Source of the DNA: a virus
Direction: 5' to 3' (one strand)
Virus record (IMG/VR): IMGVR_UViG_3300014720_000221
Location: 1 to 21,548 of that record
DNA length: 21,548 nucleotides
Under the pieces are notes generated by a model. That model had not been told where the DNA came from. It was given only the letters and a program-made list of their open reading frames with translations, and ran no database searches. The position numbers and the translations under genes were made by a program. Below are positions 2,677 to 20,617 of the stretch, one piece after another. Each line of letters starts with the position of its first letter. Position 1 is the stretch's first letter.

Positions 2677-2690
2677 TGGACAGTTGTCCA
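2677..2690. repeat. Intergenic palindrome, TGGACA-GT-TGTCCA
   Basis: Perfect 6-bp arms around a 2-base centre, in the 42-base gap between the 196-aa and 344-aa leftward genes and about 8 bases upstream of the GGAG of the latter. Same architecture and position as the other palindromes of this arm but with a different arm sequence. Confidence 0.75.
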
Positions 2691-2697
2691 TAAAGAA

Positions 2698-3288
2698 TCA
2701 ATCAAAATAAACTTCTTCGTGTGCGTCCTCCAAGCGCTTGTATAAATCCTTTGCAAAGTCTTGTGCATCGTTGAGCATGTGTGCCCACAGGCGGTTGTAG
2801 TTATTGTAGTTATACAACTCGGTTTCCCAACACCAACCCGTTGCTTTCAGTAGTTCTTTCACTGGCGTATGCTCGAACGGTCCACCCCACTTACCCATAG
2901 TCTCAACGTCGTTGCTACCCATGCACGTCCAGTAGATGTCGCTCATGGTCATGGTCTTTTCGTGGGTGTAGTACCCGTTAGAAGTAATCTCCACTTTGTT
3001 GTCGAACACACCGGCATGGAACAACCAGAACATAACTTCCAGCGTCCCGTTGTCTATGCCTTCGATGCCGCCGTTCTCTAACTTCCACTCAATGTAGGCA
3101 GCGGGACGTAGTACCCCAACCCAAGAAGCACCATCAAATTGGCTATGGAAACCGCTGTAGAAAACCCTGTCTATTTCAAACCCCCTTTCGGGGGCTTGGG
3201 TCTTGGCTTCTGCGATGATGCTATCTGCTATCGCTTTGTAGTCTGCGTTTCTATGTGCGCGTTCTACTTTATCTTCAATCGTTTCCAT
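2698..3288 (-). CDS. Unknown protein with SGF-x-SQ-x-DGAS motif, 196 aa
   Basis: Residues 43-56 (FYSGFHSQFDGASW) match, from memory, the SGF.SQ.DGA signature of a phage/plasmid family sometimes labelled 'antitoxin of toxin-antitoxin stability system'. That label is a database name, not a proven role, and no toxin partner is seen beside it. The rest is rich in Trp, Tyr and Asn (MSDIYWTCMG, WCWETELYNYNNYNRLW). Start: ATG at 3288 with GGAGG 8 bases upstream. A TTG 15 bases earlier is in frame but would put the Shine-Dalgarno inside the gene. It overlaps the previous gene by 14 bases. Confidence 0.75.
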   Translation of the reverse strand: METIEDKVERAHRNADYKAIADSIIAEAKTQAPERGFEIDRVFYSGFHSQFDGASWVGVLRPAAYIEWKLENGGIEGIDNGTLEVMFWLFHAGVFDNKVEITSNGYYTHEKTMTMSDIYWTCMGSNDVETMGKWGGPFEHTPVKELLKATGWCWETELYNYNNYNRLWAHMLNDAQDFAKDLYKRLEDAHEEVYFD

Positions 3289-3514
3289 TCTCAGTACCTC
3301 CAATCAGGTCCATCAGGTCACGGCCCGTGGCAAAGTAAATAACAAGACCCTGCGGAGGGTCGGTGTCGAGTGCCTCATACCCTGCGAATACACCGGCAAG
3401 GAAGTCTGCATGTGCTCGCTTGTATGTCTTGCCGTTGGTGGGGTTGAGCCGGTGCGTTGTTGCGTATCCGTCCCATTGCTTTGCGATGGTCAGAAGTTCT
3501 TCACACTTGGTCAT
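3275..3514 (-). CDS. Unknown small phage protein, 79 aa
   Basis: Begins MTKCEELLTIAKQWDGYATT. The middle reads TYKRAHADFLAGVFAGYEAL and the C-terminus is acidic and polar (LIGGTENGND). No family is recognised. The ATG at 3514 has AGGAG 6 bases upstream. It overlaps both neighbours by 14 bases, so the three genes between 4061 and 2698 probably form a coupled set. Confidence 0.7.
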   Translation of the reverse strand: MTKCEELLTIAKQWDGYATTHRLNPTNGKTYKRAHADFLAGVFAGYEALDTDPPQGLVIYFATGRDLMDLIGGTENGND

Positions 3515-4061
3515 TGCTATCTCCTTGGGTTTGTGCAGGCTGTGCCTGCTGTTGTTGGCGCAGCATCTCTGCTGCTAGTGCTTCGATGAATTCAGAGTCC
3601 TTGAGAATCTCCAAGAGATTTTGCTTGGCTACCTCATCCACATCCACGTTGTCATCAAAGTACTCACTCACCGCATCCTTCACGGCATCGTCTACTTCTA
3701 GGTTGTTGCACAGCCAGTTGTCTACATGCGATTCAATCTCATCATCGAAGTCGTAGTTGTTAAGGACACGTTCAACCGCCTCATCAATATCAAAGTGGTC
3801 GGATGCATCGAAGTTACGGAAGTAGTGGTCTACGTCCTCTTCTATGTACTGCTGTAAGGATTCATTAACTTCCGCATCGATAAGCCTTTCAGCCCACTCC
3901 TTGAACCACACGGCTTCTTGCAACACCACATCTACTGCTGCCTTGAAGTTCTCCTCAGTTGGCATGAACAGGTCGTTGGGTTGGGCGGCTACGCTCGGGG
4001 TCTTGAGGGTATGAGCGAGGTCGAGTTCCATTTGCTGCGGGGTAATAGTGCATACACACAT
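3501..4061 (-). CDS. Acidic helical-repeat protein downstream of the MoxR-VWA block, 186 aa
   Basis: Very acidic. Residues about 85-155 hold roughly four degenerate 16-19-residue amphipathic units, each starting with an acidic F/V-D-x-D/E element (FDIDEAVERVL, FDDEIESHV, EVDDAVKDAV, DVDEVAKQNL). The C-terminus is Gln-rich (RQQQQAQPAQTQ). Similar acidic repeat segments occur in phage proteins of unknown role. The ATG at 4061 has a strong GGAGG 8 bases upstream. It is the next gene after the MoxR ATPase, separated by a hairpin and a palindrome. It could be a partner or substrate adaptor of that system, but only position suggests this. Confidence 0.7.
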   Translation of the reverse strand: MCVCTITPQQMELDLAHTLKTPSVAAQPNDLFMPTEENFKAAVDVVLQEAVWFKEWAERLIDAEVNESLQQYIEEDVDHYFRNFDASDHFDIDEAVERVLNNYDFDDEIESHVDNWLCNNLEVDDAVKDAVSEYFDDNVDVDEVAKQNLLEILKDSEFIEALAAEMLRQQQQAQPAQTQGDSNDQV

Positions 4062-4083
4062 AGTAGATACCTCCTATTTAAAA

Positions 4084-4097
4084 GGGTCACATGACCC
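4084..4097. repeat. Intergenic palindrome, GGGTCA-CA-TGACCC
   Basis: Perfect 6-bp arms around 2 bases, lying between a tetraloop hairpin (4104-4121) and the GGAGG of the 186-aa gene. On the transcribed strand it is followed by TTTT. Confidence 0.8.
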
Positions 4098-4103
4098 GAA
4101 AGA

Positions 4104-4121
4104 TGGGGGCCGAAGCCCCCA
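4104..4121 (-). terminator. Hairpin with cUUCGg loop after the MoxR gene
   Basis: A 7-bp stem (T GGGGGC / GCCCCC A) with a C(UUCG)G tetraloop when read on the minus strand, 12 bases after the MoxR stop. No run of T follows directly (ATCTTTC), so it is a weak terminator at best. It may instead be an RNA-stabilising or processing element. The same 16-base GC core forms the true terminator after the capsid gene at 20591. Confidence 0.45.
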
Positions 4122-4132
4122 AAACTTACTGC

Positions 4133-5275
4133 TTACATCAACTCACGATGCTCCTTGAGCATGGCTGCATACGCTGCGACAGTCAGGTACAAACCAACAA
4201 ACTTACTGTCGTTCACGCTACCAACAAACATGGTCTGCATCTCGCTGCGCATACGGGACACGTACCGGCAAACCTTCTCAGCCTGCATACGGTCTTGAGC
4301 CTTGCTGACTAGCATGCTGACCTGCACCACCTGCACCATCGGGTCATCATGGATTGCTGCCTTGTCGGGGTCGGCGATGATTGCATCGAACGGGGTAATG
4401 CTTGCACCCAGTCGCACATACGCACCAAGTTTGTTGGCATACACCGCACCCACGACACCAGTAAGCATGGCATCAAGAGTTACGGCGCTGAGACCCTTCG
4501 ATGCCCAGAGAATATCGCTTGCTGCATGCAGCGAACGAGGGGTTACATACGCAAGTTGCGACGGGTCACGCGGGTTGAAAATCATGGGGTTGTCTTTCGC
4601 CAACTCCCGACCCTCAAACTTACCACCCTTCTCATAGTCGAGGAACGAATCAAACACCTCGGTATGCTCACCGCGCTCTGGGTTAAGAGAGGCAAGGATG
4701 AAGGGGTGGATGTTGTTATCGACACCCCACTTGTGCCACTCCGCTGCGGTGGGTTTGCGCATGTACATCTGGACAAGACGGTTGCGCATATGCGGTTTGG
4801 ATACATCGCCAAGACCCTCGACACCAAGGTTTGTAGCGGTGATGGTGATGCTGCCCTCGGGGAACTTGAAGGGTCCAATCTGCCGGTCATACACGATAGG
4901 CGAAAGATACTGCTGGATGCGCTGCGGTGCCTTGAACAACTCGTCGATGAAGATGGCAACAGGTTTGCTGTTGGGTACACCGTACTGGTTGTGCTTGCTG
5001 ACACCGAACCGCTCGTTGGGTAACTCACGGGAGACACCGTTCTCACGGTCAAGGTCAGGCATCCACACCGAACCATCGCTCAACTCGGGTGCAACTACAG
5101 GAACTGAGAAGAAGTAATCCTTGTAGTCGGGGTCCTTACGTAGCGCATGGTAGATAGCGGTCTTACCGATGCCGTTCTCACCAGAGATGAGGATGGTGCG
5201 CTTGTGCCCGATAGCCTTGATGGCCTTGACGATTTCTTCCATCGAAAGGAACGGGGTGTTGGGGTTTGCATACAT
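4133..5275 (-). CDS. MoxR/CobS-like AAA+ ATPase, 380 aa
   Basis: AAA+ ATPase of the MoxR/CobS type. Walker A GENGIGKT is at residues 32-39, Walker B VAIFIDE at 106-112, a sensor-1-like TATN at 146-149, and an arginine-finger candidate in MRNR (163-166). The short N-terminus running straight into the P-loop and the helical C-terminal half are usual for this group. MoxR ATPases are known to work with VWA-domain partners in protein remodelling and metal-centre or complex assembly; CobS is the ATPase of cobalt chelatase. Here the VWA partner and a DUF3150 protein lie immediately upstream in the same operon. The ATG at 5275 has AAGGAGG 7 bases upstream. The phage-specific substrate is unknown. Confidence 0.88.
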   Translation of the reverse strand: MYANPNTPFLSMEEIVKAIKAIGHKRTILISGENGIGKTAIYHALRKDPDYKDYFFSVPVVAPELSDGSVWMPDLDRENGVSRELPNERFGVSKHNQYGVPNSKPVAIFIDELFKAPQRIQQYLSPIVYDRQIGPFKFPEGSITITATNLGVEGLGDVSKPHMRNRLVQMYMRKPTAAEWHKWGVDNNIHPFILASLNPERGEHTEVFDSFLDYEKGGKFEGRELAKDNPMIFNPRDPSQLAYVTPRSLHAASDILWASKGLSAVTLDAMLTGVVGAVYANKLGAYVRLGASITPFDAIIADPDKAAIHDDPMVQVVQVSMLVSKAQDRMQAEKVCRYVSRMRSEMQTMFVGSVNDSKFVGLYLTVAAYAAMLKEHRELM

Positions 5276-5316
5276 GGTGATACCTCCTTAGAGAAAAGAA
5301 ACAACACAACAACAAA

Positions 5317-5331
5317 GGGACACGGTGTCCC
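5317..5331. repeat. Intergenic palindrome, GGGACAC-G-GTGTCCC
   Basis: Perfect 7-bp arms around one base, in the 96-base gap upstream of the MoxR gene and after a tetraloop hairpin. On the transcribed strand it is followed by a pyrimidine tract rich in T and then AAGGAGG. Confidence 0.8.
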
Positions 5332-5339
5332 CGAAAGGA

Positions 5340-5357
5340 ACTGCGCCGAAGCGCAGT
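5340..5357 (-). terminator. Hairpin with cUUCGg loop after the DUF3150 gene
   Basis: A 7-bp stem (ACTGCGC/GCGCAGT) closed by a C(UUCG)G loop on the minus strand, extended by two more pairs after a mismatch, 14 bases after the stop at 5372. Downstream comes CCTTTCGGGG, the same CTTTCGGG seen after the hairpin at 4104. It lacks a clear T run, so a terminator role is uncertain; attenuation or mRNA processing is equally possible. Confidence 0.45.
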
Positions 5358-5371
5358 CCCAAACCTTACTA

Positions 5372-6277
5372 CTAAAAATCCAACCGTGCAACCAAGTCGT
5401 CCATCTCTTTCTTCAACTCCTCACGTGCGGGGTAGTCGTTGCGTACTGTCTCGACATGGATACCCCCGACAATGCGCTCCAACTCTGCGCGTACTTCTTC
5501 AATCTTGGGGTCGCCTGTGATGTTGAGTGCAGGCACCAGTTCGCACAGACTCTTTGCCGCTTCGAGCGTGGACTCATAGAACCTGCGCGGCTTGGCCTCG
5601 TTACCCACATAGTCAACCGTCAACTGCTCAGCCAGATGGGTAACCGCACCAGTCAACCGCTCACGCACATCCGCTACTGCCACCTCGATGCGCTTGGCGT
5701 ACACCTCATTCAGCCTAGCCTTGAGTTCTTCCTGCGCTGCCACACCCACATCAACACGGAAGTCACCCGCAGTAGGCAACGGCAGATACGTCACCTTGAA
5801 CGCAAACCTACGTGCGATGTCGGCGACATCAGGAAACTCTGCGCGGTTGAACAGTGCACCCAATGCCATAGCCTGTGCCGTGATGAGACTCGGGTAGATA
5901 TGAATGAAGTCGTTGACCATCTGCGCGAACGTATCCTCAAACTCTTTCATCGCCGTGTCGAACTCAATGAACCTGGCGGTGGGGAGCAAGCGCATACCAC
6001 GGTCTGACCACGGCACGGTGTTGGCTGTCACATACTCCCGAACCTTCTGCGTGAACGAGATGATGCTGTCCAACTCCGAAGTACCTGCGAGCAGGTGCTT
6101 GTTCACACGCGCTGCGTTTTTAGCCTTGGCACCCTTGGCAGTCTGCACCTCAGCCGTTGTACCCTTGTCGAGTTTACGGGCTGTCCACACCGATGCATTG
6201 AACTCCACAAGCATGGAGCAGGTGTCGAGGTTGTAACGCGGGATGTCGATGGCGATGTTGCTGTCGTTCAAGTTCAT
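5372..6277 (-). CDS. DUF3150-like protein between MoxR and VWA genes, 301 aa
   Basis: A mostly helical protein, probably of the DUF3150 family. The assignment rests on remembered family features and on the association of this family with AAA+/CobS-like and VWA/CobT-like genes on plasmids and phages. The N-terminus (MNLNDSNIAIDIPRYNLDTC) carries short strands, followed by an ASVWTARKLDK segment, an Ala/Lys-rich stretch (AKGAKAKNAARVNKHLL, about 48-64) and long helices with coiled-coil character (about 110-140 and 185-300). There is no signal peptide or catalytic motif. The ATG at 6277 has AAAGGAG 6 bases upstream and starts 17 bases after the VWA stop, so the two are co-translated. It is probably the third subunit of the MoxR-VWA machine. 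Biochemical role unknown. Confidence 0.75.
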   Translation of the reverse strand: MNLNDSNIAIDIPRYNLDTCSMLVEFNASVWTARKLDKGTTAEVQTAKGAKAKNAARVNKHLLAGTSELDSIISFTQKVREYVTANTVPWSDRGMRLLPTARFIEFDTAMKEFEDTFAQMVNDFIHIYPSLITAQAMALGALFNRAEFPDVADIARRFAFKVTYLPLPTAGDFRVDVGVAAQEELKARLNEVYAKRIEVAVADVRERLTGAVTHLAEQLTVDYVGNEAKPRRFYESTLEAAKSLCELVPALNITGDPKIEEVRAELERIVGGIHVETVRNDYPAREELKKEMDDLVARLDF

Positions 6278-6294
6278 AACATTCTCCTTTGGTT

Positions 6295-7614
6295 TTAGAG
6301 ATTAACACTACTTACATGGACCACCTTGCCGAAGGGTGGGGTGAAGCGCTCGTTATCAAGTACGCCCCAGAGGGACGGACAAGACGGCTGAGTCTTGAGA
6401 GTGTCGATGTATCCATCGGTTAGCCATACGATTGCAGCAGGGTCGATGTTGTTGGCAGCGATGTAGTCGAGGACGCACTGCGGTGATGTACCCCCACCCC
6501 CTGCCGGTGCAAGCAAGCCTGCTATATCGTCATAATTACTTTCATCAAACGTCTGCGCAGCAGCGACCTCGGTATCCCACCACAGCACGTGTACCTTGGA
6601 CGGCTTGACGGTTCGCAGGATGTTGGCTACCTCACCAAAGAGCACGGGGTACACCGGACCCATCGAACCTGACGTATCACCGGCCACCACCAACTCGGGC
6701 ATGGAATTGGAATACAGGGATGGCATGAGCAGGTCTAGCGGTTGGAACCTGCGGTTGGGTGGGGCGAACGTACCCTCGTCGTCGCCTTGGCATGCATCGG
6801 TAAAGAAGTCCTGCATCGGCCCACGCCAGTCAGTGATGCGCTCAGCAGCGATAGCGTCGAACCTACCCCCGCTACCAAGTTTGGCTAGGGCTTTCTTGTG
6901 CATGATGTTGCCCTGCTCGATGGCATCGTTGAGTTTCTTCTCCAGTTCTGCTAGTTCATCTTGGCTCATGTCGCTGAAGTCAGGGAAGTCGTGTTCATCG
7001 AAGCCACCCTGTCCTGCCAATGCGTCCTGTGCAGATATGGCAGGCCCACCCTTCACATCCTCTTGTTGCTTGGCGTTGGGGTCAGGTGACCCGTTGCTTG
7101 GCTTGCCGTTAGGGTTGGGGTTACTGCCGTTGGGTTTGTTGGGGTTCTGCATGTTGAGCAGTTCCTTCAGCACCTCCATCCAAGACATACCGGCGAAGCG
7201 AGCGTCAACCAAGGCACCACCCGGAGGACGTTCTACAAACTGCGCAGCCCCCGGTGTTGTCTCGATGAGCCAGTTGATTACGAAGTCCATAGACATGTTG
7301 GACAGGTCGGGGTACTTGATACATATGCTGCGGTACGCAGGCATGTGGTGCTTGAGAAACTTGTGTAGAAGTTCGTGAAATAACAAGTACCGTGCTTGCT
7401 TGCGGTTGAGGGGTGCGAAGAAAGCGGGTCCGACCTTGATGTCTTTCCCGTTAGTGCATGCGGTGGGTACGCTGTCATCCAAAAAGATTTGACCATGCAC
7501 AAGCACACCACCAAGGCGACAGAAATGCGGGTGCTTGAGGGTGTCGTTGCCAATCGCTTGGATGCGTTGTTGGAGCGTGAGTTTGTCCCAACGGTCTTGA
7601 TATAGTGCTGACAT
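6295..7614 (-). CDS. Zincin-like / VWA-like protein (DUF2201 type), 439 aa
   Basis: Two-domain protein. The N-terminal part has a zinc-protease-like HELLHKFLKHH at 80-90, which fits HExxHxxxxxH with H80, E81, H84 and H90. A low-complexity Asn/Pro/Gly linker follows at about 155-190, then an acidic helical segment. The C-terminal VWA-like domain has a complete MIDAS: DTSGS (313-317), Thr in GGGGTS (about 376) and Asp in LTDG (400). This layout is that of the DUF2201 putative metallopeptidase plus VWA-like family, whose relatives pair with MoxR ATPases. Whether it cleaves protein is untested. The ATG at 7614 follows AGGAG by 5 bases; an upstream in-frame start would read through the palindrome and is rejected. 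It begins the VWA-DUF3150-MoxR set. Confidence 0.88.
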   Translation of the reverse strand: MSALYQDRWDKLTLQQRIQAIGNDTLKHPHFCRLGGVLVHGQIFLDDSVPTACTNGKDIKVGPAFFAPLNRKQARYLLFHELLHKFLKHHMPAYRSICIKYPDLSNMSMDFVINWLIETTPGAAQFVERPPGGALVDARFAGMSWMEVLKELLNMQNPNKPNGSNPNPNGKPSNGSPDPNAKQQEDVKGGPAISAQDALAGQGGFDEHDFPDFSDMSQDELAELEKKLNDAIEQGNIMHKKALAKLGSGGRFDAIAAERITDWRGPMQDFFTDACQGDDEGTFAPPNRRFQPLDLLMPSLYSNSMPELVVAGDTSGSMGPVYPVLFGEVANILRTVKPSKVHVLWWDTEVAAAQTFDESNYDDIAGLLAPAGGGGTSPQCVLDYIAANNIDPAAIVWLTDGYIDTLKTQPSCPSLWGVLDNERFTPPFGKVVHVSSVNL

Positions 7615-7627
7615 ATAAACTCCTCTC

Positions 7628-7644
7628 GGGGACACGGTGTCCCC
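7628..7644. repeat. Intergenic palindrome, GGGGACAC-G-GTGTCCCC
   Basis: Perfect 8-bp arms around one base, filling most of the 35-base gap upstream of the VWA gene, 3 bases from its AGGAG and 5 bases after the preceding stop. Confidence 0.85.
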
Positions 7645-7649
7645 ATAAA

Positions 7650-7853
7650 TTAAAGCGTTCTAACAACAAACAAGACTGCCCAGTACAGAGCGGTCAGCCA
7701 TGCTACTACACAAAGCACTGCTACAACAGGGTTCAACTCAAACTTTTTTCTCTCCTCCTCGTAGAGAACGGGTTCATATCCATAAGCCTCTCGCATCGAG
7801 CGGGGTAGGCGGTAGTCGTGGGGTCTGTGCTCACTAAAAAACTTCTCATTCAT
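7650..7853 (-). CDS. Small membrane protein, 67 aa
   Basis: The N-terminal 40 residues are polar and charged (MNEKFFSEHRPHDYR, then YEEERKKFEL). A single membrane helix follows at about 42-64 (NPVVAVLCVVAWLTALYWAV), ending in RTL. With a charged N-terminal domain it is a C-tail-anchored candidate. The start at 7853 has GGAG 6 bases upstream, one base after the previous stop. It is directly upstream of the VWA gene and may link that system to the membrane, which is inference from position only. A lysis role cannot be excluded but nothing else here supports one. Confidence 0.7.
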   Translation of the reverse strand: MNEKFFSEHRPHDYRLPRSMREAYGYEPVLYEEERKKFELNPVVAVLCVVAWLTALYWAVLFVVRTL

Positions 7854-7854
7854 C

Positions 7855-8061
7855 TCACTCTCCCTTCGGGTCATCTGACCCCATAAAATCCCGCCAAGCA
7901 AACAGCGGACCTACCCTGCGTTCGATGTGCGTCTTGTACACCTCATGGTTGGCGGTGATTGACTTCGCTCGCTTCTTGGCATCGTCCTTCAATGCCTTCT
8001 TCTCTATGTATGTAAGCGGAGCGTTGGGGTGTACTGCGGGTTGGAACTTCTTATGTGGCAT
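7855..8061 (-). CDS. Unknown basic small protein, 68 aa
   Basis: Basic N-terminal two-thirds (PLTYIEKKALKDDAKKRAKS) and an acidic tail MGSDDPKGE. The tail codons are the palindrome at 7868-7881 plus the Shine-Dalgarno of the next gene, so this C-terminus is dictated by a regulatory element. The ATG at 8061 has AAGGAG 7 bases upstream. It overlaps the previous gene by 11 bases. Function unknown. Confidence 0.65.
   Translation of the reverse strand: MPHKKFQPAVHPNAPLTYIEKKALKDDAKKRAKSITANHEVYKTHIERRVGPLFAWRDFMGSDDPKGE
7868..7881. repeat. Palindrome inside a gene end, GGGTCA-TC-TGACCC
   Basis: Perfect 6-bp arms around 2 bases. Unlike the others it lies within codons (Gly-Ser-Asp-Asp-Pro) at the 3' end of the 68-aa gene, but it keeps the same distance to the next gene's Shine-Dalgarno. 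Confidence 0.8.
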
Positions 8062-8314
8062 CTTTGTTCTCCTTGGCTAGTCGTGCTTTCTGCATGCGCT
8101 CGTAGACTTTCTTGTGTCTGAGGTACGTGTCCTTCGAGATTTTTATCCGCACTGTAACAAGCATCTCGTCGCCCGTGTCTCCGGCTTTGAGGGAAGTCCA
8201 GTCGTTGTGCGTGTACACCCAGTCGATAGCGCCTTCTTCTTTCCCCGCCTTCTCTAGCGCGTAACGGTGCGCCTTGCGCGGGGGGTTCATTGCTTCTAGG
8301 TATGTCTTATGCAT
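8051..8314 (-). CDS. Unknown small phage protein, 87 aa
   Basis: Begins MHKTYLEAMNPPRKAHRYAL, has a beta-like middle (DEMLVTVRIKISKDTYLRHK) and a basic helical C-terminus ending KENKDAT. No family is recognised. The ATG at 8314 has GAGGAG 7 bases upstream and overlaps the previous gene by 8 bases. Its last codons contain the ribosome binding site of the next gene, almost identical to the one that precedes its own start. Confidence 0.65.
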   Translation of the reverse strand: MHKTYLEAMNPPRKAHRYALEKAGKEEGAIDWVYTHNDWTSLKAGDTGDEMLVTVRIKISKDTYLRHKKVYERMQKARLAKENKDAT

Positions 8315-8435
8315 CTTTGTTCTCCTCGTTTTGTTCCTGCATCAACTGCTCAACCTCACGTTCTTGCCTTTCGAGTTCACTGAAAAGCATGTCCATCATC
8401 TCATCCACTACCTGTTTCACTTGCGCTTCATTCAT
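8307..8435 (-). CDS. Very small acidic helical protein, 42 aa
   Basis: MNEAQVKQVVDEMMDMLFSE then a Glu/Gln-rich helix ending ENKDA: a single amphipathic, probably coiled-coil, helix. The ATG at 8435 has GGAG 7 bases upstream and starts 2 bases after the stop of the 48-aa membrane gene. Longer in-frame starts read through that gene in another frame and are rejected. Function unknown; it could be a partner of one of the small membrane proteins. Confidence 0.55.
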   Translation of the reverse strand: MNEAQVKQVVDEMMDMLFSELERQEREVEQLMQEQNEENKDA

Positions 8436-8437
8436 CT

Positions 8438-8584
8438 TCACTCTCCTCTCATAACACCAGCGACGCAGACCAACACGCCCAACAGCCAGAACAGCGCGGC
8501 CATGAACACATCTACAAACACAACAGCACACCACAGGCTCAGGCTGAACAACAGCACGGCCACGATTGCGCTTTCTACGTTCAT
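8438..8584 (-). CDS. Two-helix membrane microprotein, 48 aa
   Basis: Begins MNVESAIVAVLLFSLSLWCA. Nearly the whole chain is hydrophobic, with two candidate membrane helices (about 6-25 and 27-45) and a charged tail RGE. The ATG at 8584 is preceded by GGGAG 6 bases away, in a 22-base block identical to that before the 67-aa membrane protein. Its tail segment VLVCVAG resembles VVCVAG in the 36-aa membrane protein at 10994, and the DNA there shares about 15 bases. A holin-like role is conceivable but there is no endolysin nearby. Confidence 0.6.
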   Translation of the reverse strand: MNVESAIVAVLLFSLSLWCAVVFVDVFMAALFWLLGVLVCVAGVMRGE

Positions 8585-8598
8585 CTCACTCTCCCTTC

Positions 8599-8615
8599 GG
8601 GGACATCGTGTCCCC
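8599..8615. repeat. Intergenic palindrome, GGGGACA-TCG-TGTCCCC
   Basis: Perfect 7-bp arms around 3 bases, in the 33-base gap between the zinc-motif gene and the 48-aa membrane gene, immediately upstream of GAAGGGAGAG (minus strand). Confidence 0.85.
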
Positions 8616-8617
8616 AA

Positions 8618-9373
8618 CTAAAAAACCGCAGGTACCCTGCGGAGCCAATGCACCCTGCGATGCAGGGTTTCCAACTCGTTGCGCTCGTCTTTGCTGAGCA
8701 TCATCTCCCACCTGTCAGGGCCGCGCACACCACGGGCTAGGTAGTCTTCGACTTTCAAGCGGCATTGCAGCAACAACTCAATCTTTCTTTCCCTGTACAG
8801 GGAGTCCGGCATCTTCCGTGTCACCTGTAGTTTCTCTGTGATTTGTTGGCGCAGTGCGGCGATGGTCGGGGTTGTTATCTTTGCTGCGAGAGAGTTCCTT
8901 TTGATGCTTGCGCATACGTTGCACTTGATGTGCAGGGTCTTAATCGTTGTGTCTTCGCGCCATCCGTACTTGCGAGCCAGTTGCTTGGATGGTTTGCGTG
9001 TGAAGTGCGAGAGGGGTTTGGTTTCAAGGCAGGTCGGGCAGGTCTTGAGGTTCGGGTCATCCGGCTGTTTGGGCTTGCATTGCACGTAGACTTTTTCGGT
9101 TCTGTACCAACCCACATCCTTGGCGGCAGCAACAAGAATCTCTTTTAGTTTTTTTGTGGTCAGGTCGGTGAACCCGTGCTTGCTCCATGCTTTGTCGATG
9201 GCGGTTAGGGTTAGGCTGTATGCATCCTTCGCTTTTTCTTTGCTGTTCCTGATGCGGTTTTGGAGCATGTTGCGTGCCTTGTACGTCTTGATTCGCTCGG
9301 TTTCCTCCCATGTGTAGAAGGTGCGCTCGGGTACGGTAAGGCTGTAGTCGGTTGTAATCTTGCCTCTAGTCAT
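8618..9373 (-). CDS. Zinc-binding (CxxC...CxxC) phage protein, 251 aa
   Basis: Basic protein with a four-cysteine zinc motif: CPTC at 112-115, followed by LETKPLSHFTRK, and CNVC at 151-154. The CxxCxxxKPLxxF pattern is familiar from phage zinc-ribbon and endonuclease-VII/HNH-type proteins, but no clear HNH catalytic His-Asn-His set is visible here. Flanking helices are Arg/Lys-rich, so nucleic-acid binding is likely. The ATG at 9373 follows GGGGG by 5 bases; an upstream in-frame extension would encode the palindrome and promoter and is rejected. It has its own promoter at about 9430. Confidence 0.7.
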   Translation of the reverse strand: MTRGKITTDYSLTVPERTFYTWEETERIKTYKARNMLQNRIRNSKEKAKDAYSLTLTAIDKAWSKHGFTDLTTKKLKEILVAAAKDVGWYRTEKVYVQCKPKQPDDPNLKTCPTCLETKPLSHFTRKPSKQLARKYGWREDTTIKTLHIKCNVCASIKRNSLAAKITTPTIAALRQQITEKLQVTRKMPDSLYRERKIELLLQCRLKVEDYLARGVRGPDRWEMMLSKDERNELETLHRRVHWLRRVPAVF

Positions 9374-9403
9374 TGGAACCCCCTGTGTTTGTGGTTTGTT
9401 CAA

Positions 9404-9419
9404 GGGGTCATGTGACCCC
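9404..9419. repeat. Leader palindrome, GGGGTCA-TG-TGACCCC
   Basis: Perfect 7-bp arms around 2 bases. It begins at or next to the transcription start predicted from the extended -10 box at 9426-9431, so it could be an operator overlapping +1 or a hairpin at the extreme 5' end of the mRNA. Confidence 0.85.
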
Positions 9420-9425
9420 ATCGGT

Positions 9426-9455
9426 AGCATAGCACTTCCGGGGTTCTCGGTACAA
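9426..9455 (-). promoter_or_regulatory. Predicted sigma-70 promoter for leftward genes
   Basis: On the minus strand: TTGTAC (9455-9450), 18 bases, TATGCT (9431-9426), with TGC directly upstream of TATGCT giving an extended -10. The predicted start is near 9419. It would drive the 251-aa zinc-motif gene and those beyond it. Confidence 0.5.
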
Positions 9456-9473
9456 TCTCCCACAAAACTCAAG

Positions 9474-9724
9474 TGTACTAGTCGGGAATTGGACGTTTTA
9501 GGTACGGACGAGGGGCAGCAGACACGGGGCTTCTAGGTTCTTCGTCCTTGGCTATCCTACGTTTCTGGAAATAAACACACAAACAAAAAAAGAAAAACAA
9601 AAATCTATGGGAATACATATATACATACATACTACTACTACTACTATAGATATATATATATAGAGAAACGGACGAAAAACAAAGAAGCCCCGCAAACACT
9701 GGCTTAGCGTCGGTCTAGGAACGT
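9474..9724. other. AT-rich non-coding interval with microsatellites
   Basis: No convincing gene is seen in about 250 bases. It holds an A-rich tract (9577-9603), alternating ATACAT repeats (9613-9630), a run of TAC triplets (9630-9646) and an alternating TA run (9650-9662). This composition is unlike the rest of the window. It could be an AT-rich unwinding element, a promoter-proximal region or a remnant of a lost gene. A minus-strand frame through it encodes runs of Tyr, Ser and Phe from the repeats and is not accepted as a gene, although its last 30 codons (ending YLKRPIPD) look more protein-like and may be a gene relic. Confidence 0.5.
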
Positions 9725-9817
9725 CTACCCGCCGATGATTTCGGATATGGTGTCGAAATCGCTCAAAAATTGAGCAGTTGGGTAGATACTGGTTTTTTTC
9801 TTTTTAGTTGCCCCCAT
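9725..9817 (-). CDS. Possible 30-aa microprotein coupled to the 59-aa gene
   Basis: ATG at 9817 lies inside the last codons of the 59-aa gene (14-base overlap) and the frame closes at TAG 9725. The product begins MGATKKKKTS and ends DFDTISEIIGG: a basic head and an acidic tail, unlike a random frame. A stop lies directly before the ATG and there is no Shine-Dalgarno, so translation would depend on coupling. It may also be chance. Confidence 0.3.
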   Translation of the reverse strand: MGATKKKKTSIYPTAQFLSDFDTISEIIGG

Positions 9818-9983
9818 TCAGGCTTTTCACGTGGGCGTTCCACTTGTCCGCGCCTTCGGCCATGCGGTAGATGTTCTCAAGCACAACCTTGCGGGATTCG
9901 GGGTTCTTCCTTTGCGCCAATTCGACGAGCAGCGGCACTAGGTCAACCCACTTGGGGGTGATGTTGATGGTTGTGATTTCCAT
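9804..9983 (-). CDS. Small conserved-looking phage protein, 59 aa
   Basis: Begins MEITTINITPKWVDLVPLLV and continues with RKVVLENIYRMAEGADKWNA. This pattern, a short beta strand then PxWxxLxPLLxxL and a C-terminal helix with RMAxxADxWN, matches from memory a widespread small phage/prophage family of unknown function. The ATG at 9983 has GGGAG 8 bases upstream, 20 bases after the previous gene. It probably has a regulatory or binding role, but this is not established. Confidence 0.7.
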   Translation of the reverse strand: MEITTINITPKWVDLVPLLVELAQRKNPESRKVVLENIYRMAEGADKWNAHVKSLNGGN

Positions 9984-10003
9984 GCTTGGTTCTCCCTGTT
10001 ATG

Positions 10004-10270
10004 TTAGGAATGGAAGGTGAACTTGTGGTCTTCGTCACGCCAGATTGCGCCCATCGTGTAGGAAGCATTGGGGTTGGTTGAACTGGTGTAACGAACGATG
10101 AGGTCGGTGTCGGAGTGGTGGTCGAGGTAGATGTTGACCGTATCGAAAACATTGTCTGTGATACCCCAAAGGGATAGGTAGCCCAACGCTTCTGTCAGGT
10201 CGATGTGGTCGGTGTTGCGAGCCAGTTCCTTGAAACTGTCTTGCTTGATGTTGATGATGATGGTTCTCAT
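10004..10270 (-). CDS. Unknown small phage protein, 88 aa
   Basis: Begins MRTIIINIKQDSFKELARNT and contains LGYLSLWGITDNVFDTVNIY and a C-terminal beta-like part (LIVRYTSS, SYTMGAIWRDEDHKF). No family is recognised. The ATG at 10270 overlaps the previous stop in ATGA, with GGAGG 10 bases upstream, showing translational coupling to the 52-aa Cys-motif gene. Confidence 0.7.
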   Translation of the reverse strand: MRTIIINIKQDSFKELARNTDHIDLTEALGYLSLWGITDNVFDTVNIYLDHHSDTDLIVRYTSSTNPNASYTMGAIWRDEDHKFTFHS

Positions 10271-10425
10271 GCTTGGGTATCCTCCTCGTTGATGTTGTTG
10301 ACAGGCATGCTCGTCGGGCGGTGTGCGCAGAATTCGCAGGTTGGGTCACCGCATTCAGGCTCAGTCCACTGGCCTGTCTCGGCATCGTATAAAGCGTCGT
10401 ACTTCGGTGAATACAGGATGGTCAT
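10267..10425 (-). CDS. Small Cys-motif protein, 52 aa
   Basis: Begins MTILYSPKYDALYDAETGQW and contains ECGDPTCEFCAHRP, a compact C-x4-C-x2-C-x-H cluster that could bind zinc. The ATG at 10425 has AAAGGAG 5 bases upstream. A longer in-frame start would encode the palindrome and part of the previous gene and is rejected. Coupled by ATGA to the next gene. Function unknown. Confidence 0.65.
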   Translation of the reverse strand: MTILYSPKYDALYDAETGQWTEPECGDPTCEFCAHRPTSMPVNNINEEDTQA

Positions 10426-10440
10426 GCTTGCTCCTTTCAT

Positions 10441-10456
10441 GGGGTCATGTGACCCC
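10441..10456. repeat. Intergenic palindrome, GGGGTCA-TG-TGACCCC
   Basis: Identical in sequence to the site at 9404. It lies 6 bases after the stop of the 56-aa gene and directly before ATGAAAGGAG (minus strand), a flank shared with the site at 11535. Confidence 0.85.
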
Positions 10457-10462
10457 ATAGGT

Positions 10463-10633
10463 TTACTTCTTGAGACGGAGGGGGGTGATGTCAGTGTTAC
10501 GCCCAATGAAACCAATCCACTCGTCGGCTTCCGCTTCACGAGTCTGGGCGACACGAACACGCTTGGGTATTTCACGCAGTTCCTTGCGTACTGGACGCAG
10601 CGCGTCCTTGAGTTGCCGGTTAAGAGTTTTCAC
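10463..10633 (-). CDS. Small basic protein, 56 aa, GTG start
   Basis: Very basic helix-rich protein: MKTLNRQLKDALRPVRKELR, then IPKRVRVAQTREAEADEW and a tail ITPLRLKK. Nucleic-acid binding is plausible. The GTG at 10633 is chosen because GGGAG lies 6 bases upstream. The ATG 36 bases further up has no such site and would cover it. Function unknown. Confidence 0.6.
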   Translation of the reverse strand: MKTLNRQLKDALRPVRKELREIPKRVRVAQTREAEADEWIGFIGRNTDITPLRLKK

Positions 10634-10680
10634 ATGGTTCTCCCATAAATGTCGTTGGCTAGACGGCATAGGCTCATCAG

Positions 10681-10697
10681 GTGCTGTGCCACAGCAC
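10681..10697. repeat. Intergenic palindrome, GTGCTGTG-C-CACAGCAC
   Basis: Perfect 8-bp arms around one base, the same 8-1-8 architecture as the site at 7628 but with an unrelated arm sequence. It lies in the 90-base gap between the 52-aa and 56-aa genes, next to a GC hairpin. Confidence 0.8.
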
Positions 10698-10699
10698 GA

Positions 10700-10713
10700 C
10701 CCCCTCGCGGGGG
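10700..10713 (-). terminator. GC hairpin with GCGA loop
   Basis: CCCCC/GGGGG stem with a GCGA (GNRA-type) tetraloop on the minus strand, 10 bases after the stop of the 52-aa gene. No T run follows, so it is a weak terminator or a stabilising element. It repeats the 'hairpin then palindrome' order seen at 4084-4121 and 5317-5357. Confidence 0.4.
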
Positions 10714-10723
10714 TTTCGCCGGA

Positions 10724-10882
10724 TTAATCAAGCAAAGGCATTTCCTCCACGGAAAACTCCACCATGACTTCGGGGTTCTCACGCTTGACCATCTCAACCT
10801 CCGCGAGAAGCCCCGCAAGCGAATCGAACGCCTTGAACCCTAGCCACGGTTCTGTAATGCGCAGCATCCACACAGTCTTCAT
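10724..10882 (-). CDS. Unknown small protein, 52 aa
   Basis: Begins MKTVWMLRITEPWLGFKAFD and continues with LAGLLAEVEMVKRENPEVMV, ending VEEMPLLD. A probable beta-alpha-beta mini-fold. The ATG at 10882 has GGGGG 5 bases upstream, one base after the stop of the 36-aa membrane gene. Codon use is like its neighbours. No family is recognised. Confidence 0.6.
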   Translation of the reverse strand: MKTVWMLRITEPWLGFKAFDSLAGLLAEVEMVKRENPEVMVEFSVEEMPLLD

Positions 10883-10883
10883 C

Positions 10884-10994
10884 TCAACCCCCACAACCAA
10901 TAAGGCTCAGGCCGTACTGAAGGCCCACGATGAAGGCTGCGCCAGCGACGCAGACCACGAGTACTGCCACATCTGCAAAACTTTCAGTTTTCAT
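10884..10994 (-). CDS. Single-helix membrane microprotein, 36 aa
   Basis: Begins MKTESFADVAVLVVCVAGAA. One membrane helix spans about residues 9-32, and the tail is IGCGG. The ATG at 10994 has GGAGG 5 bases upstream. The frame stays open upstream through the palindrome and terminator but there is no start signal there. It shares a VCVAG segment and about 15 bases of DNA with the 48-aa membrane protein at 8438-8584, suggesting partial common origin. Function unknown. Confidence 0.6.
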   Translation of the reverse strand: MKTESFADVAVLVVCVAGAAFIVGLQYGLSLIGCGG

Positions 10995-11016
10995 ACCATC
11001 CTCCAAAGAAGTTATG

Positions 11017-11030
11017 GGGTCATGTGACCC
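11017..11030. repeat. Intergenic palindrome, GGGTCA-TG-TGACCC
   Basis: Perfect 6-bp arms around 2 bases, between the terminator at 11040-11077 and the GGAGG of the 36-aa gene. On the minus strand it is preceded by CTATC, as is the site at 11535. Confidence 0.8.
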
Positions 11031-11039
11031 GATAGACAC

Positions 11040-11077
11040 AAAAGAAAACCGCGCAGAGAGTTCCCCCCCCTGCGCGG
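11040..11077 (-). terminator. Rho-independent terminator after the 139-aa gene
   Basis: On the minus strand, CCGCGCAG pairs with CTGCGCGG around a 13-base loop containing a run of G, followed by TTTTCTTTT. It lies 22 bases after the stop at 11099, so the first leftward gene can be terminated separately from those behind it. Confidence 0.75.
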
Positions 11078-11098
11078 CCATGCAACAACTGTCAAAAC

Positions 11099-11518
11099 TT
11101 ACTTGGCGATTTGCAACTTCGCCAACTTGCGGAACGCAGCACGACCCTTCGCGTCCAGTTCAAGGTACATCGACACAACATCTTCCACCTTCACAACCTT
11201 GTTGGCCGCCTTGCGGCCTTGCCTCGTACCACGGGAAACCTCGCCCTTCAACTGAGCGAGCACATCACGCAACAACGTCTTGGCCCCTTCATAGTTTGCG
11301 TGGGCCGAATCCAGAACCCACGGCGTGAGAGCCTTGCCACCAACGGCCTGCTTGAGCGCGCAGCCAGTAACTTTGCCAACAGCAGCAACAACGTCCTGAC
11401 GTTCCGCGCCCTTGAGAGCTTCTGCGAGAGCCGTGCGAGCCTTGGAGAATGTGGCGATAGCCTTCACGAACTCCGGCTTGGCGACAGGGGCGAGTGCAAC
11501 AACGGTTTGCTTGGTCAT
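11099..11518 (-). CDS. First leftward gene, unknown basic protein, 139 aa
   Basis: Lys/Ala-rich helical protein: MTKQTVVALAPVAKPEFVKA, a middle LLRDVLAQLKGEVSRGTRQG, and a basic C-terminus (KGRAAFRKLAKLQIAK). It is the promoter-proximal gene of the left arm, with its own promoter, leader hairpin, palindrome and downstream terminator, so it can be expressed as a single-gene unit. The ATG at 11518 has AAAGGA 6 bases upstream. The high Lys/Arg content fits a DNA-binding or host-takeover protein, but no known fold is recognised. Confidence 0.7.
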   Translation of the reverse strand: MTKQTVVALAPVAKPEFVKAIATFSKARTALAEALKGAERQDVVAAVGKVTGCALKQAVGGKALTPWVLDSAHANYEGAKTLLRDVLAQLKGEVSRGTRQGRKAANKVVKVEDVVSMYLELDAKGRAAFRKLAKLQIAK

Positions 11519-11534
11519 TTCATTTCCTTTCATG

Positions 11535-11548
11535 GGGTCATCTGACCC
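11535..11548. repeat. Leader palindrome, GGGTCA-TC-TGACCC
   Basis: Perfect 6-bp arms around 2 bases in the leader of the first leftward gene, directly before ATGAAAGGA (minus strand). Flanks match those of the site at 10441. Confidence 0.85.
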
Positions 11549-11614: not shown

Positions 11615-11775
11615 CAGATAGGGGCTTGAAGGCTCGGGCGGCGAACCCCACCGGGGGGGCATCACCCTGTTTTGCGGCAAGGCTGCGCGTAGCCATGAAG
11701 CACTATTCCTCAGCCATACAACGCATTTTGTAAAATCACTGTAAACTTGTCGCCAACACAACTCCCCACCACTAC

Positions 11776-11781
11776 TATAAA
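11776..11781 (+). promoter_or_regulatory. Candidate rightward -10 box
   Basis: TATAAA followed by AT, 31 bases before the HNH start codon. No -35 match is seen 16-18 bases upstream, so an activator or a phage-modified polymerase might be needed. The call is tentative. Confidence 0.3.
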
Positions 11782-11812
11782 ATTCCCACACCTCTTGTCA
11801 AATCTTAGACAT

Positions 11813-19651: not shown

Positions 19652-20560
19652 ATGGCAATTTCTCGTGCCCAGCTACTTAAGGAACTCCTGCCCGGCCTGA
19701 ACGCGCTGTTCGGTATGGAGTACTCTCGCTACGGCGAGGAACACAAGGAAATCTACGAGACCGAAACCTCGGAACGTTCCTTTGAAGAAGAAACCAAGCT
19801 GTCGGGCTTCTCGGCTGCTCCGGTGAAGAACGAAGGTCAAGCCATCGCGTACGACAATGCGCAAGAAGCTTGGACTGCTCGTTACAACCACGAGACCATC
19901 GCTCTCGGTTTCTCGCTCACGGAAGAAGCAGTGGAAGACAACCTGTACGACACCCTGTCGGCTCGTTATACCAAGGCTCTCGCCCGTGCTATGGCTTACA
20001 CCAAGCAAGTCAAGGCTGCTGCGGTTCTGAACAACGGCTTCTCGTCGCAATATGTTGGCGGTGACGGCGTTGCTCTGTTCTCGGCCTCGCACCCTCTGAT
20101 TTCTGGTGGTGTCAACAGCAACACCCCGGTTGTCGCCGCTGACCTGAATGAAACGTCGCTTGAAGCTGCGGTCATTCAAATCGCTGCGTGGACGGATGAA
20201 CGTGGTCTGCTGATTGCCGCTAAGCCACGTAAGCTGATTGTTCCGCCGAGCCTGATGTTCGTTGCTACCCGTCTGCTGGAAACCGAACTCCGTGTCGCTA
20301 CCGCTGACAACGACATCAACGCTCTGAAGAGCAACGGTTCGATTCCGGAAGGCTACGGCGTCAACCACTTCCTGACCGACAACAACGCTTGGTTCCTGAC
20401 GACCGACGTTCCGAATGGTCTGAAGCACTTCGTTCGTACGCCGCTGGCTACGTCAATGGATGGAGACTTCGACACCGGTAACGTTCGTTACAAGGCCCGT
20501 GAGCGCTATTCTTTTGGGTGGTCGGACCCACTGGGCATGTTTGGCTCGCCCGGCGCGTAA
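19652..20560 (+). CDS. Major capsid protein, 302 aa
   Basis: HK97-fold-type major head protein, related in pattern to Mu gpT-like capsids. Begins MAISRAQLLKELLPGLNALF, with an N-terminal extended region (EIYETETSERSFEEETKLSG), FSLTEEAVEDN and FSASHPLISGG segments, and a C-terminal FVRTPLATSMDGDFDTGNVR then YSFGWSDP. The length is usual for an uncleaved capsid protein with separate scaffold. Codon use shifts towards CTG, GTT, GGT and AAC, as expected for high expression. ATG at 19652 with AGGAG upstream. A strong terminator follows. Confidence 0.88.
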   Translation: MAISRAQLLKELLPGLNALFGMEYSRYGEEHKEIYETETSERSFEEETKLSGFSAAPVKNEGQAIAYDNAQEAWTARYNHETIALGFSLTEEAVEDNLYDTLSARYTKALARAMAYTKQVKAAAVLNNGFSSQYVGGDGVALFSASHPLISGGVNSNTPVVAADLNETSLEAAVIQIAAWTDERGLLIAAKPRKLIVPPSLMFVATRLLETELRVATADNDINALKSNGSIPEGYGVNHFLTDNNAWFLTTDVPNGLKHFVRTPLATSMDGDFDTGNVRYKARERYSFGWSDPLGMFGSPGA

Positions 20561-20588: not shown

Positions 20589-20617
20589 GAGGGGGCTTCG
20601 GCCCCCTTAGTTTTTTC
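20589..20617 (+). terminator. Rho-independent terminator after the capsid gene
   Basis: AGGGGGC-TTCG-GCCCCCT hairpin with a cUUCGg loop followed by TAGTTTTTTC, about 30 bases after the capsid stop. Confidence 0.9.

Follow-up and report, generated by a model that had tools for sequence, protein, structure and literature searches.

The short palindromes strung along the leftward early operon of the viral DNA studied here are very probably DNA binding sites, and the comparative sequence analysis points to a fast-evolving regulator of these sites, the product of the first early gene of the phage itself. The window, by which we mean the whole stretch analyzed, comprises the 21,548 bases of the IMG/VR virus record IMGVR_UViG_3300014720_000221; it is probably a fragment, and a megablast search of it against isolated phages gave no match.

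Palindromes in the Window Fall Into Two Site Types

An earlier note on this DNA had listed eleven palindromes, and all of them were recovered, each within two bases of where it had been reported. The same note assigned their arms to four or more classes. Several different arms do exist, but nine of the eleven belong to just two types, the one at 2677 is doubtful, and that at 10681 stands outside the family. Together with a copy overlooked earlier, the window holds ten sites of these two types: GGGTCA-N2-TGACCC in seven exact copies (starting at 4084, 7079, 7868, 9405, 10442, 11017, and 11535) and GGGACA-N3-TGTCCC in three (5317, 7629, and 8600). Operator-like sites of the first type lie in the leader of early gene 1 (11535..11548), 68 nt past the stop codon of this gene (11017..11030), at 10441..10456 and 9404..9419, where the arms extend to GGGGTCA-N2-TGACCCC, at 7868..7881, and in the leader of a 186-amino-acid gene (4084..4097). 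The seventh, at 7079..7092, is the overlooked copy; it is placed within the VWA/DUF2201 coding region, where it encodes NGSPDP. The description of the family as intergenic fails for this copy, and the statement that the palindromes usually lie just upstream of a Shine-Dalgarno sequence is correct for the window.

Among the operator-like sites of the second type, those at 8599..8615 and 7628..7644 read GGGGACA-N3-TGTCCCC; the former has an intrinsic terminator-like hairpin 10 nt upstream (8626..8642, minus strand), and the latter occupies the leader of the VWA/DUF2201 gene. The third (GGGACA-N3-TGTCCC, 5317..5331) is found in the leader of the AAA ATPase gene. The genes for the AAA ATPase and the DUF3150-like and DUF2201/VWA proteins follow one another at 4133-7614 (minus strand), a module that is conserved in relatives. 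TGGACA-N2-TGTCCA at 2677..2690 is a possible divergent member, as each arm departs by one base from GGGACA and the centre has 2 nt. The palindrome GTGCTGTG-C-CACAGCAC (10681..10697, minus strand), with arms unlike all others, has another hairpin beside it at 10699-10714.

As the earlier note had claimed, sites with the shared arms are confined to the leftward arm of the window. It had also held that an equal density of palindromes in the rightward arm or in shuffled sequence would speak against a specific family. For the family sites no such balance exists, but generic palindromes (arms of six or more, each window arm compared separately with dinucleotide shuffles) exceed the shuffles on both sides, with 34 against 12.8 in the leftward arm and 24 against 10.0 in the rightward arm. 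Hence, the distinctive property is the shared arm word and not symmetry itself. The rightward arm carries a typical UUCG-loop terminator at 20590-20607 (plus strand), and the gene before it ends at 20560.

Related Viral Contigs Each Carry Their Own Palindromic Word

Terminase and ATPase searches yielded 160 loci from relatives, in which genes were called with a simple script; since the contigs overlap in ancestry, the counts of loci and sites that follow are not counts of independent events. Of about 65 related viral contigs, the majority possess one such family, with 3-10 copies placed in the opening 3-7 kb of the early operon, and a palindromic word recurring at least three times is present in about 85 loci as against 0 of 49 shuffled loci. 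In the 67 loci with families of at least four copies, 308 perfect sites stand against 17 with a single arm mismatch, and the spacing is constant in 292 of the 308. Within a genome the arms are near-invariant and the centre is free; between genomes the arms differ, with all copies changing together. The half-site words vary widely among relatives and include GGGAACA, GTGGGACA, GTGAGACA, GCGGACA, GCTGACA, GCAGACA, AGTATCA, TGTGGTCA, TGTGGAGA, GGACGGA, and GGGGAGA, among others. The concerted nature of these changes can be seen in two sets of close relatives, L101/L102 and L106/L109/L116, between which five orthologous junctions switch from TGTGGTCA to TGTGGAGA, several of them with nearly unchanged flanks.

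Non-coding DNA makes up about 30% of the sequence, yet intergenic gaps hold 217 of 279 sites, which often come directly after the preceding stop codon. In three near-full-length records (65-66 kb), every copy is located inside a single stretch of the early region, about 5-6 kb long, and searches of these records with the half-site return nearly always a full palindrome in that stretch, along with a few chance half-sites. Among isolated phages, the nearest terminases are those of 023Pt_psg01, DSL-LC04, and HTVC027P (about 52%), and the parts of these phages that were read contain no comparable family of palindromes. Integrases of the tyrosine or serine recombinase families gave no match in 12 relatives, several of which are fragments. 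We read the carriers of the family as freshwater phages, going by the kind of contigs and not by a recorded habitat.

The N-Terminal Domain of Early Gene 1 Tracks the Half-Site

The first leftward gene of the window, early gene 1 (11099..11518, minus strand), encodes a candidate palindrome binder of 139 amino acids with a variable N-terminal domain followed by C-terminal helices. Candidates for the same gene occupy the same place in about 100 loci, and here, too, it is mostly the N-terminal part that varies and the C-terminal end that is more conserved. Between the two sets of close relatives with switched junctions, gene 1 ranks with the least conserved of the genes they share (57-58% identity), as compared with 87-88% for the small terminase subunit and 96-99% for the ATPase region.

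Differences between half-sites follow differences between gene 1 N-terminal domains (Mantel r 0.41 in 63 loci and 0.54 in 31 loci), and in the 31 loci the correlation persists when five other proteins and the gene's own C-terminus are taken into account (partial r 0.56, p 0.0005), with the proviso that Mantel permutation removes the shared ancestry of the contigs only partly. Given the gene 1 N-terminal domain, the values for the large and small terminase subunits, the ATPase, the zinc protein, a 325-amino-acid protein, and the gene 1 C-terminus are near zero or negative, and none of these six shows a significant positive partial correlation with the half-site. The pair L115 and L109 is instructive in this respect: their other genes are similar (0.73-0.94), their gene 1 N-terminal domains are unrelated, and their half-sites read CGGACA and TGGAGA, respectively. 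On the basis of these sequence comparisons, the gene 1 protein is likely the binder of the palindromes, with the N-terminal domain alone tracking the half-site.

This protein belongs to no family that we could recognize. Alignments of 22 members gave no convincing match to Pfam (alignment A1) or to PHROGs (alignment A2), and type I gene 1 found no match in 50,697 phage records or in bacterial genomes. Fold models (pLDDT about 82) depict a helix-helix-helix-hairpin-helix arrangement without a significant neighbour in the PDB and viral libraries; the MarR/LysR-like and KH-like matches obtained were insignificant.

In One Subgroup, a Single Residue Changes With One Half-Site Base

In type I gene 1 proteins whose half-sites belong to the C-x-GACA group, the residue x of the motif AM[x]RVL, located in the helix predicted to come after the beta-hairpin, changes with the half-site base in third place. 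Asparagine accompanies CGGACA, tyrosine or histidine CTGACA, and glutamine CCGACA; tyrosine was found with GCTGACA in three loci, among them L017, the half-site of which was read from L123 on the same contig. An initial version of the rule relied on an aspartate or asparagine two positions N-terminal of this one in the motif. It did not hold in L216, and as the present position was chosen after that failure, the following check on newly fetched loci is not fully blind. Seventeen distinct new proteins with asparagine go with CGGACA; one protein with tyrosine and one with histidine go with CTGACA, one with glutamine goes with CCGACA, and GTATCA accompanies two proteins bearing a QG motif. Some of the new proteins are close to earlier ones, which puts the effective number below the count. 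Type I proteins with GTATCA also carry asparagine, which limits the rule to the C-x-GACA group, and L138 (CGGACA) has a differing helix, so that one residue does not set the whole half-site. The rule was observed in proteins that are distantly related to the gene 1 protein of the window.

DNA Sites or RNA Hairpins, and Which Protein in Which Role

The earlier note had favoured an RNA hairpin on the ground that symmetry outlasts sequence change, and had named a dimeric DNA-binding regulator as the alternative. It is the alternative that our data strongly support, through a candidate protein whose sequence, even at single residues, changes along with the half-site; the argument for RNA loses its footing, given that the arms hardly change within a genome and do not covary. 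In the subfamily ACT-N-GC.GACA, the variable bases N of the two sides are complementary in 19 of 44 sites, with 18.1 expected from composition, and positions outside the core likewise behave as composition predicts for independent half-sites. A G-U pair is tolerated by RNA alone; at the variable positions of the palindromes, G-U is not favoured over A-C. Taken together, fixed arms, a free centre, missing covariation, and the presence of sites within genes speak for a symmetric DNA site. Hairpins in mRNA leaders, acting as 5'-end stabilisers, cleavage sites, or translational control elements, would suit the many sites found between a stop codon and a Shine-Dalgarno sequence and those relatives in which the hairpin immediately follows a -10-like element at the ATPase gene; such a 5'-terminal hairpin after a sigma70 promoter occurs there in some relatives and is not general. 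A T-run follows 42 of 286 sites, often just past gene 1, and such sites may double as intrinsic terminators, for which RNA folding would be relevant. Nevertheless, with arms that track a protein residue and an Rfam search of the window that gave no match, we regard leader hairpins as an improbable explanation of the family. Still further down the scale, and practically negligible, is chance or low-level repeat noise: the excess of generic palindromes in both window arms might suggest it, but the shared 12-base words, 3-10 copies per genome, never arise in shuffles, and their recurrence refutes it.

If the palindromes are DNA sites, another early protein might bind them, with gene 1 following by linkage. 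The obvious candidate is the CxxC...CxxC zinc-type protein encoded at about 8618-9373 (minus strand), which is conserved in the early regions of relatives and appears to bind nucleic acids. Its correlation with the half-site vanishes once gene 1 is controlled for (0.05, p 0.28), whereas gene 1 retains its own in the converse analysis, and the residue-to-base rule sits in gene 1; the zinc protein thus finds no support as the factor, and we deem this explanation highly improbable. Gene 1 protein could, on the other hand, bind the palindromes for a purpose other than repression, be it partition, a replication origin, packaging, organisation of the early-region DNA, or activation of early transcription. 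Clustering of the sites in a single region next to the terminase genes, their lack of a tie to promoters, and their flexible position relative to start codons would fit such a role, but their strong preference for early-operon gaps and the way they bracket gene 1 appear regulatory, and no ParA-like gene came to notice in passing, so that we consider it rather unlikely. Upstream of the gene for the zinc-type protein there is a long non-coding gap, which contains an AT-rich tract with ACT and TA simple repeats (9600-9670).

Many relatives also possess a second kind of hairpin, in which the stem changes (GCC...GGC), the loop stays similar (CNGTT/CNGTC), and the position is mostly 8-10 nt before a Shine-Dalgarno sequence (L095 at 3786, L159 at 3981, L138 at 1401, L150 at 1313, L166 at 5203, L164 at 1248, L129 at about 6643, and L148 at about 5692). 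Unlike the palindromes, this element looks like a true RNA structure.

A Model for the Control of the Early Operon

A site is present at gene 1, either in its leader, inside it, or no more than 150 nt past its stop codon, in 62 of 63 loci (leader, 32; in the gene, 23; past the stop, 51). Leader and in-gene sites were never seen together in one gene 1 among these loci, as if they replaced each other. In the window, an intrinsic terminator-like hairpin (11047..11079, minus strand) is situated past gene 1 and upstream of the 11017 site, and a probable leftward early promoter, TTGACA-16-TATAGT with 11 of 12 consensus matches, is found at 11774..11801 (minus strand). The relative L009 (terminase 92% identical, gene 1 45%) has the same promoter hexamers and the same GGGTCA-N2 word, one copy of it within gene 1. 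The bracketing of gene 1 by sites suggests that the gene may be negatively autoregulated. No enrichment of -10-like elements was found before the sites, which are generally not tied to sigma70 promoters, and a block to elongation is therefore likelier than promoter occlusion.

These observations lend themselves to an operator model that we consider probable. The gene 1 protein would bind the palindromes as a homodimer on double-stranded DNA, each arm serving as one half-site and the 2-3 bp centre going unread. Bound protein would act, in the manner of stoperators, as a roadblock to RNA polymerase at points along the early operon, some of them next to or inside an intrinsic terminator; gene 1 would thereby repress itself first and the early genes next. 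The coexistence of 2- and 3-nt centres in the window, and of 5- and 6-nt centres in the relative G002, is unusual for one rigid dimer. The joint rapid turnover of site and protein might reflect competition among co-infecting relatives, which would then form immunity groups, and superinfection immunity is perhaps the role of the system.

Dispersed operators with a cognate regulator are already known as a kind; what would be new here are the protein family and the palindromic sites. In the accounts cited here, Cluster A mycobacteriophages such as L5 and Bxb1 have many dispersed repressor sites, the stoperators, mostly away from promoters; the motif varies from phage to phage in step with the repressor, and the sites block elongation (PMC6550527, PMC9283540). 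The palindromes resemble them in being multiple (3-10 per early operon), phage-specific, spread along transcribed DNA mostly off promoters, and matched to a phage-encoded candidate repressor. However, stoperators are described as asymmetric 13-bp sites, mostly in one orientation, numbering as many as about 30 in a genome and bound by a repressor that acts as a monomer in temperate phages (PMC6550527, PMC9283540), whereas our sites are perfect palindromes without orientation and restricted to the early operon, and the candidate regulator is the product of a first early gene in phages whose examined relatives yielded no integrase. SPBRE of the Bacillus phage SPbeta is likewise a short repeated intergenic element first found in silico and later recognized as the operator of MrpR, but it lies in promoter regions, and MrpR is a recombinase-like master repressor of a temperate phage (PMC10516654). 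The SAS/ESAS elements of Cluster K mycobacteriophages are also repeats upstream of translation starts and in part inverted repeats with a variable spacer; they differ in that SAS, 13 bp long and asymmetric, lies at the ribosome-binding site, ESAS has imperfect arms of 17 bp, and no trans-acting partner is known (PMC3203893).

It is conceivable, although we put this forward tentatively, that widespread integrase-less freshwater phages encode small DNA-binding regulators belonging to a new family, with fast-diversifying words, a readable residue-to-base code, and immunity groups in apparently lytic phages. If the operator model is right, a function and a concrete binding code could be assigned to an uncharacterised gene family, tens of natural protein-operator pairs would become available for studying the evolution of DNA specificity, and the question would arise why seemingly lytic phages retain a repressor-like system whose specificity turns over like that of immunity groups.

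The two site types of the window perhaps stem from exchange with a phage of the GGGACA type. The sites at 7868 and 8599 have an identical downstream flank (GAAGGGAGAGTGAG) and differing words, a pattern that conversion of one of the leaders would produce. At the ATPase gene of L145 and L147, GTGAGAC-type and GCGGACA palindromes stand together, the rest of L147 being of the GTGAGAC type, and the GCGGACA palindrome is possibly an imported operator.
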